64,000 nt of DNA from Thermoprotei archaeon (lineage in GTDB: Archaea > Thermoproteota > Thermoprotei > Gearchaeales > WAQG01): contig JAVZOV010000001.1 of NCBI GenBank assembly GCA_038881895.1, positions 62,001-126,000 of the forward strand, read 5' to 3'. This document shows, piece by piece, positions 3 to 62,800 of the stretch. The notes below the pieces were generated by a model. It was not told the DNA's origin, made no database searches, and saw only the letters and a program-made list of their open reading frames with translations. The position numbers and the translations under genes were made by a program. Position 1 is the stretch's first letter. Every line of letters begins with the position of its first letter.

Positions 3-446
3 GACATAAATAAAAGTGTATGGGATGATGTATTTTCTGTTGATCTCTGGGGGGCTTTCCTTTGCTCCAAGGAAGCATCTAGAATTATGCTCAATCATGG
101 TCATGGTAGTATAGTGAATATAACCTCTACACCTGGTATTGCTGGTGGTAGTGATGGAATTGTTTATGCAATCGCAAAATCTGGTGTTATAGGGTTAACA
201 AGAACACTTGCTAATGTATTAGCACCAAAAATAAGGGTCAACGCTGTAGCGCTTGGAAGCATTAAGACTGATTGGTTACAGTGGATTAGTAGTAAAGATA
301 TCGAGGAACTTATTAATCGTATTCCGTTAAAAAGATTTGGGGAACCAGAAGAAGTAGCAAAAGTAGTATTGTTTCTTGCATCACAGGACTCAAGTTATAT
401 AACCGGGCAGATAATTATTATCGACGGAGGTGTAGTGACTTGTTGA
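3..446 (+). CDS. SDR-family oxidoreductase, C-terminal part (5' end outside window)
   Basis: The reading frame is open from base 3, so the N-terminal Rossmann half lies upstream of the window. The visible part has the SDR core: an N-I-T-S strand, the catalytic Y-A-I-A-K (YxxxK), and the usual C-terminal T-G-Q-x-I-x-x-D-G-G. This indicates an NAD(P)H-dependent short-chain dehydrogenase/reductase; the substrate cannot be told. The last residues and the stop codon (444-446) lie at or inside the right end of a miniature transposon that begins at 443, so the native C-terminus has been replaced, though only after the conserved D-G-G. Confidence 0.85.
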   Translation, partial: DINKSVWDDVFSVDLWGAFLCSKEASRIMLNHGHGSIVNITSTPGIAGGSDGIVYAIAKSGVIGLTRTLANVLAPKIRVNAVALGSIKTDWLQWISSKDIEELINRIPLKRFGEPEEVAKVVLFLASQDSSYITGQIIIIDGGVVTC

Positions 447-732
447 CACTCTCCACGGCTGAAGCCGGGAGATTCTCGGTTTGTCGTGGGGCTTCCACTC
501 ATTCTACCGAGTTCGGGCTGTGTCAAACCAGCCCCTGCCATGAGCATATAGCCCATAGCCCGCTCGCTGGAACCACCCCCGCCTTTCTCGGTTCGGAGCC
601 TTATTCCAGCTTTCGGACGTCCGAACTACATGCGAGCGACCCGCTCAAGGAGATGGTGGAATTGGAGGAATATAAACTTAACGGCGATTCATCTCCACGA
701 CCGAAGTCGGAAGCCTTCTCGCCGAAAGAATG
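443..732 (-). mobile_element. Miniature IS605/IS1341-type element, family A, copy 1
   Basis: About 290 bp with no complete gene. Read on the minus strand it has a left end with a hairpin (around 690-715), the conserved start of a family A tnpB (TTGAGCGGGTCGCTC, 632-648), then a jump to the tnpB 3' tail and the right end that finishes ...GAGAGTGTCAA at 443. The same tail and end occur in the full-size elements at 38829 and 61630, and the whole arrangement recurs at 40656 and 57834. It appears to be an internally deleted, non-autonomous copy that keeps the region expected to encode the TnpB guide-RNA scaffold. The left boundary is approximate and lacks the TTAC flank seen at other copies. Confidence 0.75.
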
Positions 733-38828: not shown

Positions 38829-39970
38829 AGGAGTAAGCAGAGAAAGCCCATATTTTTAAATATGGGATGAATGCTATATATAATTGAGCGAGTCGCTCAT
38901 GAAGGCTAAGAAAACCATTAAGGCAAAGATTCTTGAACTACGCAAAGGCAAGGAAGAGCTTCTTAGAAGGGAATACGAGAATTGGCAACGCTATTTGCAT
39001 GGAGACAAGTTTGTTCCACTTTATTCTGCTACTCGACAGCAAGCCGATAGACTTCTGAGGCGAATTGGCAAGCCAAAGGAAGGAAAAGAATACCCGCTAA
39101 TCCTGAGGAGAGATGTCTATAGGGCTGACACCAAGCTGACGCCTTATTGGCTCAAGATTCCAATTTATGGGGTTAGAGGCGGAATAAACGTCCCTATAAA
39201 GACCCATGAACCAATAACTGATGACATGGTTTGCAAAGAAGCTAAAATCGTAAAGAAAGGTAATGAGTGGTTCATCTACATAACTGTCGAGAGGGAAGTC
39301 AAGGAGAGAAACCCTAAGTCGGCTTTAGCTATAGATGGGGATACGATGGATAGCCACAACAGTCAACTCAAGCAATCCAAAACCGAAGTTCTATGAGAGG
39401 GAGCTTAGGAGGGTTAAGGGGCATTTCTTCTGGCTTAGGAGAACCTTAGCCCTGAAGAAGTCATATAAAGCGATAAAGAAGATTGGGCGTAAAGAGAGAA
39501 GAGTTGTCAACGATATTCTCCATAAGATCAGCAGAGCCATAGTAAACGAAGCTTTGGCGAACGACTCCATGATAGTTCTTGGAAAACTCAAGGGCATAAG
39601 ACGAAACGGCGAGAGCAGGACTTTCAAAAGAAAGCTCAACAACGGATTCCCATACCATAGGCTAAGCCAATTCATAGAGTATAAGGCGAGATGGCACGGA
39701 ATCAAAGTTGTTAAGATAAGCGAAAGAAACACTTCAAAACTGTGCCATAAATGCGGTCACATGAGCATCCGAGTCGGAAGCCTGTTCAAATGTCAAAACT
39801 GCGGAATCCAATGCAACGCAGACTATAATGGAGCAACGAACATCCTTAAGCGGGCTATGGGCTACATGTCCATGGCAGGGACTGGTTTGACACAGCCCGG
39901 AACTCGGTATGATGAAGGCTTAAGCCTGAGGAACCGAGAATCTCCCGGCTTTAGTCGAGGAGAGTGTCAA
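38829..39970 (+). mobile_element. IS605/IS1341-type element A1, family A
   Basis: 1142 bp preceded by TTAC (38825-38828). The left end has a perfect hairpin CCCATATTT-TT-AAATATGGG; the right end finishes GAGAGTGTCAA at 39970. Encodes tnpB only, without tnpA. Boundaries are those supported by comparison with A2 at 61630. Confidence 0.85.
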
Positions 39971-40655: not shown

Positions 40656-40946
40656 TTGACACTCTCCACGGCTGAAGCCGGGAGATTCTCGGTTTGTCGT
40701 GGGGCCTCCACTCATTCTACCGAGTTCTGGGCTGTGTCAAGGCAGCCCCTGCCATGAGCATATAGCCCATGGCCCGCTTGCTGGAACCACCCCCACCCGT
40801 CTTGGATGGGAGTCTTACTCCAGCTTTCGGGCGTCCCATCCACATCCGAGCGACCCGCTCAAGGAGCTGATGGAATTGGATGAATATAAAGTTAACGGCG
40901 ATTCATCTCCACGACTGAGGTCGGATGCCTTCTCGCCGAAAGAGTG
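40656..40946 (-). mobile_element. Miniature family A element, copy 2
   Basis: 291 bp. The minus strand reads TTTTAC (flank) then left end with short hairpin, TATA-like tract, tnpB start fragment (TTGAGCGGGTCGCTC), an inner stem GCTGGA/TCCAGC, tnpB tail and right end ending GAGAGTGTCAA. Same internal junction as the copies at 443 and 57834, so they descend from one deleted ancestor. Lies tail-to-tail with the DUF429 gene. Confidence 0.82.
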
Positions 40947-41017
40947 GTAAAACTCAATTGTAAAAGTTTAATTTATGCAAAGATACTATTTATAAGCTAG
41001 AAATTGTTTTAGCTTTT

Positions 41018-57598: not shown

Positions 57599-57721
57599 AC
57601 AAATATTTAAAAAACAAAACACATCCTAATTAAGTGAAAAATTAAATCCCAAAAATTGCATATGGATATATTTGTATGCTGTTTCAGAAATAATTCCTCT
57701 TCAAACTTAGAGAACTAGATT

Positions 57722-57763
57722 TACAACCTGAAAGCCTCCCTCTTTAGGGCGGGGAGGAGGTCA
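57722..57763 (+). repeat. TnpB-element right-end fragment, family D
   Basis: GCCTCCCTCTTTAGGGCGGG followed by GAGGAGGTCA is the right-end form typical of archaeal IS200/IS605 elements, with the hairpin-like CCCTCTTTAGGG. No attached gene remains in the 650-bp gap 57599-58252. Confidence 0.55.
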
Positions 57764-57833
57764 GCTATCGATAGGTGATTAACTGCATTAAAAATATTTA
57801 AGAACGCTTCATCTGTCAATAAGTACTGCACAG

Positions 57834-58120
57834 TTGACATTCTCCACGGCTGAAGCCGGGAGATTCTCGGTTCCTCAAGGCTAAGCCTTCATCATACCGA
57901 GTTCCGGGCTGTGTCAAGCAGCCCCTGCTATGGACGTGTAGTCCATGGCCCGCTTGCTGGAATCATCCCCACTCTTCTCGGTTCGGAGCCTTATTCCAGC
58001 CTTCGGACGTCCCATCCACATCCGAGCGACCCGCTCAAGAAAACATTGTTTAAGCACTTATTTAAGCCTATCGACGATTCATCCCAGAACAGAAGCTCTA
58101 GGCTTTCTCGTTGCATTTTT
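57834..58120 (-). mobile_element. Miniature family A element, copy 3
   Basis: 287 bp. The minus strand shows flank ATTAC, left end A-rich then GAGAAAGCCTAGAG... with a partial hairpin, tnpB start fragment, inner stem GCTGGAA/TTCCAGC, tnpB tail and right end ...GAGAATGTCAA. Of the three copies, its left end is closest to those of the full elements. Confidence 0.82.
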
Positions 58121-61629: not shown

Positions 61630-62794
61630 AGAGACGTAGCAGAAAGCCCATGATTTTAATCATGGGATGAATGCGTTTAAATACTTGTCAGTTAATTTTT
61701 CTATGGGCGAGTCGCTCATGAAGGCTAAGAAAACCATTAAGGCAAAGATTCTTGAACTTCGCAAAGGCAAGGAAGAGCTTCTTAGAAGGGAATACGAGAA
61801 TTGGCAACGCTATTTGCATGGAGACAAGTCTGTTCCACTTTATTCCGCTACAAAGCAACAGGCTGACAGACTTCTAAAGAGGCTTGGAAATGTTAAGCCT
61901 AACAAGGAATACCCGCTAATTCTGAGGAGAGATGTCTATAGGGCTGACACCAAGCTGACGCCTTATTGGCTCAAGATTCCAATTTATGGGGTTAGAGGCG
62001 GAATAAACGTCCCTATAAAGACCCATGAACCAATAACTGATGACATGATTTGCAAAGAAGCTAAAATCGTAAAGAAAGGTAATGAGTGGTTCGTTCACAT
62101 AACTGTTGAAAAAGAAGTGGAAGAGAGAAACCCTAAATCAGCTCTAGCAGTTGATATGGGGATACGATGGATAGCCACAACAGTCAACTCAAGCAATCCG
62201 AGACCGAAGTTCTATGGGAGAGAGCTTAGGAGGGTTAAGGGGCATTTCTTCTGGCTTAGGAGAACCTTAGCCCTGAAGAAGGCACATAAAGCGATAAAGA
62301 AGATTGGGCGTAAAGAGAGAAAGGTGGTTAGCGACATCCTGCATAAGATTAGCAGAGCCATAGTAAACGAAGCTTTGGCGAACGACTCCATGATAGTTCT
62401 TGGAAAACTCAAGGGTATAAGACGAAACAGCAGAGGTAGGACCTTCAAAAGAAAGCTCAACAACGGATTTCCATATTATAGGCTAAGCCAACTCATAGAG
62501 TATAAGGCGAGATGGCGCGGAATCAAAGTTGTTAAGATAAGCGAAAGAAACACTTCAAAGCTGTGCCATAAATGCGGTCACATGGGCATCCGAGTCGGAA
62601 GCTCCTTCAAATGTCAAAACTGCGGAATCCAATGCAACGCAGACTATAATGGGGCAACGAACATCCTTAAGCGGGGCATGGGCTACATGCTCATGCCAGG
62701 GGGTGATTTGACACACCCCGAACTCGGTAGGATGAAGGTATACGAAAGCCCAACGAACCGAGAATCTCCCGGCTTTAGCCGTGGAGAGTGTCAA
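61630..62794 (+). mobile_element. IS605/IS1341-type element A2, family A, intact
   Basis: 1165 bp, inserted in an MFS gene immediately 3' of TTTAC (61625-61629). Left end hairpin CCCATGATT-TT-AATCATGGG (61649-61668); right end ...GAGAGTGTCAA at 62794. Removal of exactly this interval restores the host gene's frame (A-A-T-T-T-A-C then C-A-A-T-A-G-A), which fixes both borders. One gene, tnpB; no tnpA, so movement would need a transposase in trans. Confidence 0.9.
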
Positions 62795-62800
62795 CAATAG
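61703..62800 (+). CDS. tnpB: TnpB-family RNA-guided nuclease, RuvC-II variant (family A)
   Basis: 365 aa from ATG 61703 (frame open to 61667 through the left-end hairpin). RuvC-I Asp in A-V-D-M-G-I-R; zinc finger C-H-K-C ... C-Q-N-C; RuvC-III in C-N-A-D-Y-N-G-A-T-N. The RuvC-II position reads V-L-G-K-L-K-G-I-R: the usual Glu of E-D/N-L-K is Gly (codon GGA), as in the A1 copy. The Glu in I-S-E-R-N-T-S may take its place. The last two codons lie outside the element: the stop TAG is in MFS sequence. Confidence 0.88.
   Translation: MGESLMKAKKTIKAKILELRKGKEELLRREYENWQRYLHGDKSVPLYSATKQQADRLLKRLGNVKPNKEYPLILRRDVYRADTKLTPYWLKIPIYGVRGGINVPIKTHEPITDDMICKEAKIVKKGNEWFVHITVEKEVEERNPKSALAVDMGIRWIATTVNSSNPRPKFYGRELRRVKGHFFWLRRTLALKKAHKAIKKIGRKERKVVSDILHKISRAIVNEALANDSMIVLGKLKGIRRNSRGRTFKRKLNNGFPYYRLSQLIEYKARWRGIKVVKISERNTSKLCHKCGHMGIRVGSSFKCQNCGIQCNADYNGATNILKRGMGYMLMPGGDLTHPELGRMKVYESPTNRESPGFSRGECQQ

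Follow-up and report, generated by a model that had tools for sequence, protein, structure and literature searches.

Background

The prevailing view is that a TnpB serves chiefly its own element. Guide RNAs located away from a nuclease gene are represented by the stand-alone IscB omegaRNAs of Ktedonobacter and by IS605-family elements of Geobacillus that have no protein genes; neither is known to have a conserved leader domain of the type reported below. In TnpB systems such as ISDra2, the omegaRNA (reRNA) has a 3′ scaffold that runs to the right end of the element, with stems and a near-terminal pseudoknot, and takes its guide from the flank (PMC8612924, PMC10097598); omegaRNAs have also been described from archaea (PMC12817955, PMC12558985). 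The PATEs of Haloquadratum and Halanaerobium constitute a structural class marked by the lack of a transposase gene (PMC3119063, PMC7290912), near-terminal palindromes, IS605-type ends and multiple copies in archaea, some members keeping C-terminal tnpB sequence together with the right end. In the literature collection searched for guide-only TnpB elements, PATEs alone were found.

The elements of about 290 bp described here, from a Thermoprotei archaeon, share these characters, including a 3′ part of the kind kept by some PATEs, and are tnpB-less IS200/IS605 elements of the PATE class. They differ from PATEs, which the portions consulted of those two reports treat as DNA elements lacking structure of this sort, by a predicted promoter, a covarying leader, a complete omegaRNA-like scaffold and a spread over 11 families. 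Their RNA would resemble a TnpB omegaRNA in its 3′ scaffold, stems, near-terminal pseudoknot and flank-derived guide, but has no overlap with tnpB, its own predicted promoter and an extra 5′ pseudoknot domain. We consider it probable (roughly 0.6) that these miniatures are stand-alone guide-RNA genes, mobilised in trans, which guide a shared TnpB to the sites they have vacated.

Sequences and searches

The window, i.e. the whole stretch of 64,000 nt that was analysed, comprises positions 62,001-126,000 (forward strand) of contig JAVZOV010000001.1 in assembly GCA_038881895.1 (Table 1). Searches covered the entire genome (1,752,405 bases in 7 contigs) and, at the DNA level, 60 relatives, with matches in the source genome only. 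Structure models were run on a phylum sample of 398 genomes from 163 genera; the other genomes with matches were reached by the structure model alone. Scaffold loci were counted with a covariance model at cut-offs of 100 and 70 bits, and presence of the TnpB family in other genomes was scored at E <= 1e-40.

Table 1. Miniature elements, their parts and related tnpB elements in the window.
Feature	Position	Strand	Remarks
Miniature element 1 (L007)	443..732	-	type A left end; TTAC target lost, reads CAAC
Miniature element 2 (L001), 291 bp	40656..40946	-	right end ...GTGTCAA at 40656
L001 omegaRNA-like scaffold, 124 nt	40656..40779	-	helices H1-H4 and pseudoknot
L001 right-end hairpin	40664..40684	-	helix H4, CTCC..GGAG with bulged T
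L001 leader domain	40780..40841	-	helix a/a′ GGATGGGA/TCCCATCC interlocked with b/b′ GCTGGAG/TTCCAGC
L001 5′ hairpin GAGCGGGTCGCTC	40848..40860	-	common to leader of tnpB copies
L001 TATA-like box TTTATATT	40883..40890	-	28 nt before hairpin block; predicted archaeal promoter
L001 left-end hairpin (type A)	40904..40928	-	
L001 target TTAC	40947-40950		just outside left end; GTAA on + strand
Miniature element 3 (L016)	57834..58120	-	left end of type B, TTAC directly outside it; right end TCAA; mosaic copy with mismatches between arms a and a′
Second full-length copy of tnpB element (L036/L038)	38829..39970	+	frameshifted
Full-length cognate element	61630..62794	+	after TTTAC, inside MFS gene; joined flanks restore frame
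Leader hairpin GGGCGAGTCGCTC	61705..61717	+	directly before tnpB start codon
Window tnpB	61718..62800	+	likely start 61718; RuvC-II position G; alternative Glu in S-E-R-N-T-S-K-L-C

Anatomy of the miniature elements

A sequence-only reading of the window had recognised three copies of about 290 bp, and all three are present where it placed them, on the minus strand, at a similarity that excludes chance (E down to 2e-150). The family is far larger, with 42 matches to the 40656 copy in a DNA search of the whole genome and 28 genome copies by a miniature-specific RNA model. In oriented copies, the TTAC target is followed by the left end with its hairpin; a spacer leads from there to the palindrome GAGCGnnTCGCTC, beyond which come a middle of about 62 nt and a 3′ part of 124 nt that finishes in GTGTCAA, insertion being after TTAC and the end at TCAA. 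The left and right hairpins are common to miniatures and the tnpB elements L031-L038, as in PATEs. At 291 bp the miniatures are too short for a transposase and hold no conserved frame.

As the sequence-only reading had it, a single junction leads into the middle in all three window copies, and their 3′ part, scaffold and right end alike, is shared; they also have a single 5′ block in common. The left ends, held to be identical as well, are so in the copies at 443 and 40656 only, that of the 57834 copy being the one present on the tnpB copies L033 and L034. Type A ends have the 6-bp CACTCT in common, and copies are mosaic, with left ends swapped between them. What had been taken for 17 bp of tnpB is really the palindrome GAGCGnnTCGCTC, which precedes the probable tnpB start codon (61718) and falls within the predicted transcript leader, and the middle, interpreted as a tnpB remnant, matches none of the tnpB copies checked and recurs in other archaeal families. 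Descent from one deleted tnpB ancestor is therefore not upheld, since the miniatures carry a leader domain that is absent from the tnpB copies checked and spread over 11 families; a single recent deletion is rejected on the same grounds. A coding function of the middle was also considered and discarded, as its frames are broken between copies and early stops occur, with ATG directly before TAG in L007, L009 and L134.

Several variant structures were encountered. In L014 (G000:C2:353123-353409), the hairpin and the start of the leader domain are inverted internally. L028 and L030 are independent simple tnpB deletions without the leader domain, in which the hairpin (GTCGCTC/GTCGTTC) is joined straight to the scaffold at nearly one point in both. 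A tiny element of fused ends at 57721-57764 of the window (TTAC, then AACCTGAAAGCC...GGGCGGGGAGGAGGTCAG) resembles the ends of a tnpA-bearing IS605 element on contig C6, and can be likened to the 52-bp terminal-only PATEs of Haloquadratum. Beside miniature 1, at 733-900, about 110 bp recur almost unchanged next to another tnpB element, L040; this repeat adjoins a PTPS-family ORF at 781-1416, and the miniature 1 and L040 elements are both joined to it at CTCACCAACCC.

An omegaRNA-like scaffold

The 3′ part had been proposed to encode guide RNA, and this proposal gained support from the structure common to full and miniature copies. The scaffold of 124 nt combines four helices with a near-terminal pseudoknot and a terminus at the right end, as omegaRNAs with their scaffolds of about 116 nt do; the pseudoknot is formed by the H2 loop, TTGACA, and the terminal six nucleotides, TGTCAA. 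In 23 miniatures, 96.5% of 802 alignment cells fit the pairing, a level reached by 0/500 shuffles, and 16 cells are changed on both sides (shuffle mean 7.4, 0/500). With the addition of full copies, some of them taken from four other MAGs, both partners differ in 11 pairs (mean of 4.6 in shuffles, 0/500), so that the covariance analysis which the sequence-only reading had set as its own test found the structure conserved across full and miniature copies. The nested part of the scaffold was recovered unaided by RNAalifold. Rfam searches with miniature and full copies yielded nothing at E <= 1, and only tRNAs at gathering score within the window.

Neutral simulations along a tree, without constraint on pairing, keep 78.6% or 89.4% of cells paired, compared with the 96.5% observed (0/500 and 1/500, respectively). 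Selection is only one possible cause of this excess, to which separate tnpB sources and recombination could contribute. The idea that the scaffold is more conserved than the leader is ruled out by their divergences, 13.0% and 12.2%, respectively.

A leader domain in place of tnpB

Between the 5′ hairpin and the scaffold lies a leader domain of about 62 nt, in which two interlocked helices form a pseudoknot. The stem GCTGGAA/TTCCAGC, reported earlier as a conserved inner stem, has its arms in all three window copies and is one helix, b, of this pseudoknot. Helix b occurs in covarying variants (GCTGGAA/TTCCAGC, GCCCGAA/TTCGGGC and GCTCGAA/TTCGAGC; 0/2000 shuffles), and this covariation is independent of the alignment fit, helix b/b′ being outside the model used. 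Helix a is likewise found as GGATGGGA/TCCCATCC, GGTTCGGA/TCCGAACC and GGCCTAGA/TCTAGGCT; over 34 sequences, in an alignment fitted to helix a, double changes affect 115 cells of the leader, compared with 34.8 in shuffles. The a/a′ arms are unpaired in 3 of 20 of the genome's own copies (L011, L012 and L016, the last being that at 57834). None of the tnpB copies checked contains the leader domain, and the miniature model matches tnpB loci chiefly via helix H1. In the minimum-energy fold of the L001 leader, arm a′ is paired to the G-rich linker that helix b encloses, and arm a stays single-stranded; this alternative nested fold is a possible second state of the leader.

An archaeal TATA box is expected 25-30 nt upstream of the start of transcription. 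Of 35 sequences, 26 have their best TATA-like box at this distance upstream of the hairpin, and its spacing is kept while the left ends and surrounding spacers diverge, which suggests that transcription would start at the hairpin.

These observations bear on whether the interior matters at all. The miniatures might be hitch-hiking PATEs, of which only the DNA ends count, with TnpA acting in trans, the RNA-like interior being a legacy of tnpB parents whose similarity among copies is maintained by recent spread and recombination. The mosaic copies with their swapped left ends and the simple deletion miniatures L028 and L030 are compatible with such a history, as are known PATEs that contain part of the tnpB C-terminal region (PMC3119063, PMC7290912). 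It does not explain why helices of a leader that is not derived from tnpB covary across 11 families, why pairing exceeds that of unconstrained simulation, or why the spacing of the TATA-like box is constant while the spacer diverges, and we regard it as rather unlikely.

Elements of the IS200/IS605 type transpose as single strands whose ends are hairpins, and left and right hairpins are seen here; the interior could thus also act as DNA, its hairpins serving single-strand transposition. However, published IS605 transposition requires only the ends and TnpA, the leader domain is missing from the full-length copies checked, which also transposed, and the G-U changes in the pseudoknot and the fixed offset of the TATA-like box point to RNA. 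A DNA role of the interior is accordingly given very little credence.

TnpB and mobility

The window TnpB is a Cas12f1/OrfB-type protein, intact as the sequence-only reading had assumed. Among the cognate TnpBs of the genome, those of L031, L032 and L033 look intact; the L034, L035/L037 and L036/L038 copies are frameshifted. The catalytic residues of the window TnpB are present as D/Ealt/D. Every copy, like a sister family of 47% identity, has G at the position of the canonical RuvC-II Glu, and an alternative Glu (ExxxxxxCxxC) stands six residues before the zinc finger in both families, which rules out a nuclease-dead, TldR-like protein. An alternative catalytic Glu is known from Fanzors and from TnpBs related to them (PMC10711439), which are like the window TnpB in having G at RuvC-II and E before the zinc finger; Fanzors have DPG at RuvC-I where the window TnpB has DMG, and the window element is archaeal and of the IS200/IS605 type. 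About 80 TnpB-like matches were counted in the 1.75 Mb genome, against a single Y1 TnpA.

Movement of the miniatures, claimed earlier, is borne out by copies at many sites, one of which, L003, is nested inside an older miniature-like copy; comparison of its flanks with L026 by eye indicates precise insertion at TTAC. An MFS gene is split by the full-length element at 61630-62794; once fused at TTTAC and behind TCAA, the flanks restore a frame of 479 aa with no base gained or lost, hence without target duplication, as in PATEs. The sole Y1 TnpA found belongs to a different element, on contig C6, with a TTTAC target and a TCAG right end; since that right end is not the miniatures' own, its role as their mobiliser is only putative.

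Distribution

The leader domain occurs in 15 of the 398 phylum genomes, in 12 of 163 genera and in 11 families, with middle motifs that are weak or partial by eye in two of the genomes (G232 and G133); searches of phages, plasmids and viral contigs gave no match to it. The TnpB family is present in 16 of the 398 genomes and the miniature in 15, both together in 6 as against about 0.6 expected (Fisher p = 6e-6, or 6e-5 without the source genome, kinship of the genomes being ignored). At E <= 1e-40, TnpB of the window family is absent from 8 of the 14 other miniature-bearing genomes, some of which may be incomplete MAGs or contain other TnpB families. Guide-only loci are in excess: the source genome has 28 leader copies, and genome G115 has 21 alongside one intact and one broken TnpB. 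Scaffold loci of the source genome number 6 with tnpB and 23 without at >=100 bits, and 6 and 30 (30:6) at >=70 bits.

In two genomes (G109 and G233), the leader precedes another type of scaffold, whose sequence (reading WEPKRAM...TLEAR) recurs in L088, where a TnpB frame of 413 aa has it at the 3′ end. The leader has thus become joined to scaffolds from two TnpB families or more.

A leader shared by two scaffold families suggests a function of its own, and this, together with guide-only loci far outnumbering tnpB loci, would suit a decoy or regulator, i.e. a leader and scaffold that titrate TnpB or bind another protein, shielding the host or the miniatures without any guiding. We hold this to be improbable, because the terminal pseudoknot and the guide-adjacent boundary at the right end are kept, as guiding needs and a decoy does not.

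A probable mobile guide-RNA gene

In the preferred reading, the miniatures are non-autonomous elements with TnpA-type hairpin ends and a predicted archaeal promoter that became stand-alone guide-RNA genes. The transcription unit would comprise the 5′ hairpin, the leader pseudoknot, the omegaRNA scaffold and the right end and then run into flanking DNA, so that 12-20 nt of the DNA to the right of each element would form the guide in its transcript. The miniature scaffold would be bound in trans by a TnpB that an intact copy, of which there are few, encodes; this TnpB would cut TTAC plus guide, which is the empty site left after excision of the miniature, and repair of the cut site would copy the miniature back in. 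The leader pseudoknot, in place of tnpB, most likely would be an independent, stable 5′ domain for a short RNA. That the TnpB at 61703 is guided in trans by the miniatures, as had been suggested from the sequence, appears plausible; a guide from the own flank predicts attack on the own empty site, which points to element retention more than to the general multi-guide set then envisaged.

This reading is argued for by a scaffold topology known from TnpB omegaRNA (ISDra2, PMC10097598) with pairing above shuffles and simulation, by leader covariation, TATA-box spacing and a non-coding middle, and by the 11-family spread, co-occurring intact TnpB, the guide-only excess and the one leader with two scaffold types. 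Counted against it are the TnpB-less genomes, a scaffold no more conserved than the leader, the unpaired a/a′ in L011, L012 and L016, the alternative L001 fold, and the location of the sole Y1 TnpA in another element.

In a wider form, for which we see about even chances, a dedicated RNA module of promoter, 5′ hairpin and covarying pseudoknot would convert the omegaRNAs belonging to two or more TnpB families, throughout the phylum, into guide genes that are mobile and independent of tnpB, many of them served in trans by few TnpBs, and the leader would have a distinct role in protein binding or stability. If the preferred reading is true, a TnpB could be a resource that numerous guide-only elements share and exploit, which would give the cell a counterpart of a CRISPR guide set, built through transposition. 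The persistence of short non-autonomous IS605 elements would become testable, and the miniatures would offer a natural design for a stand-alone omegaRNA, with a leader that lends itself to tests of stability or loading.
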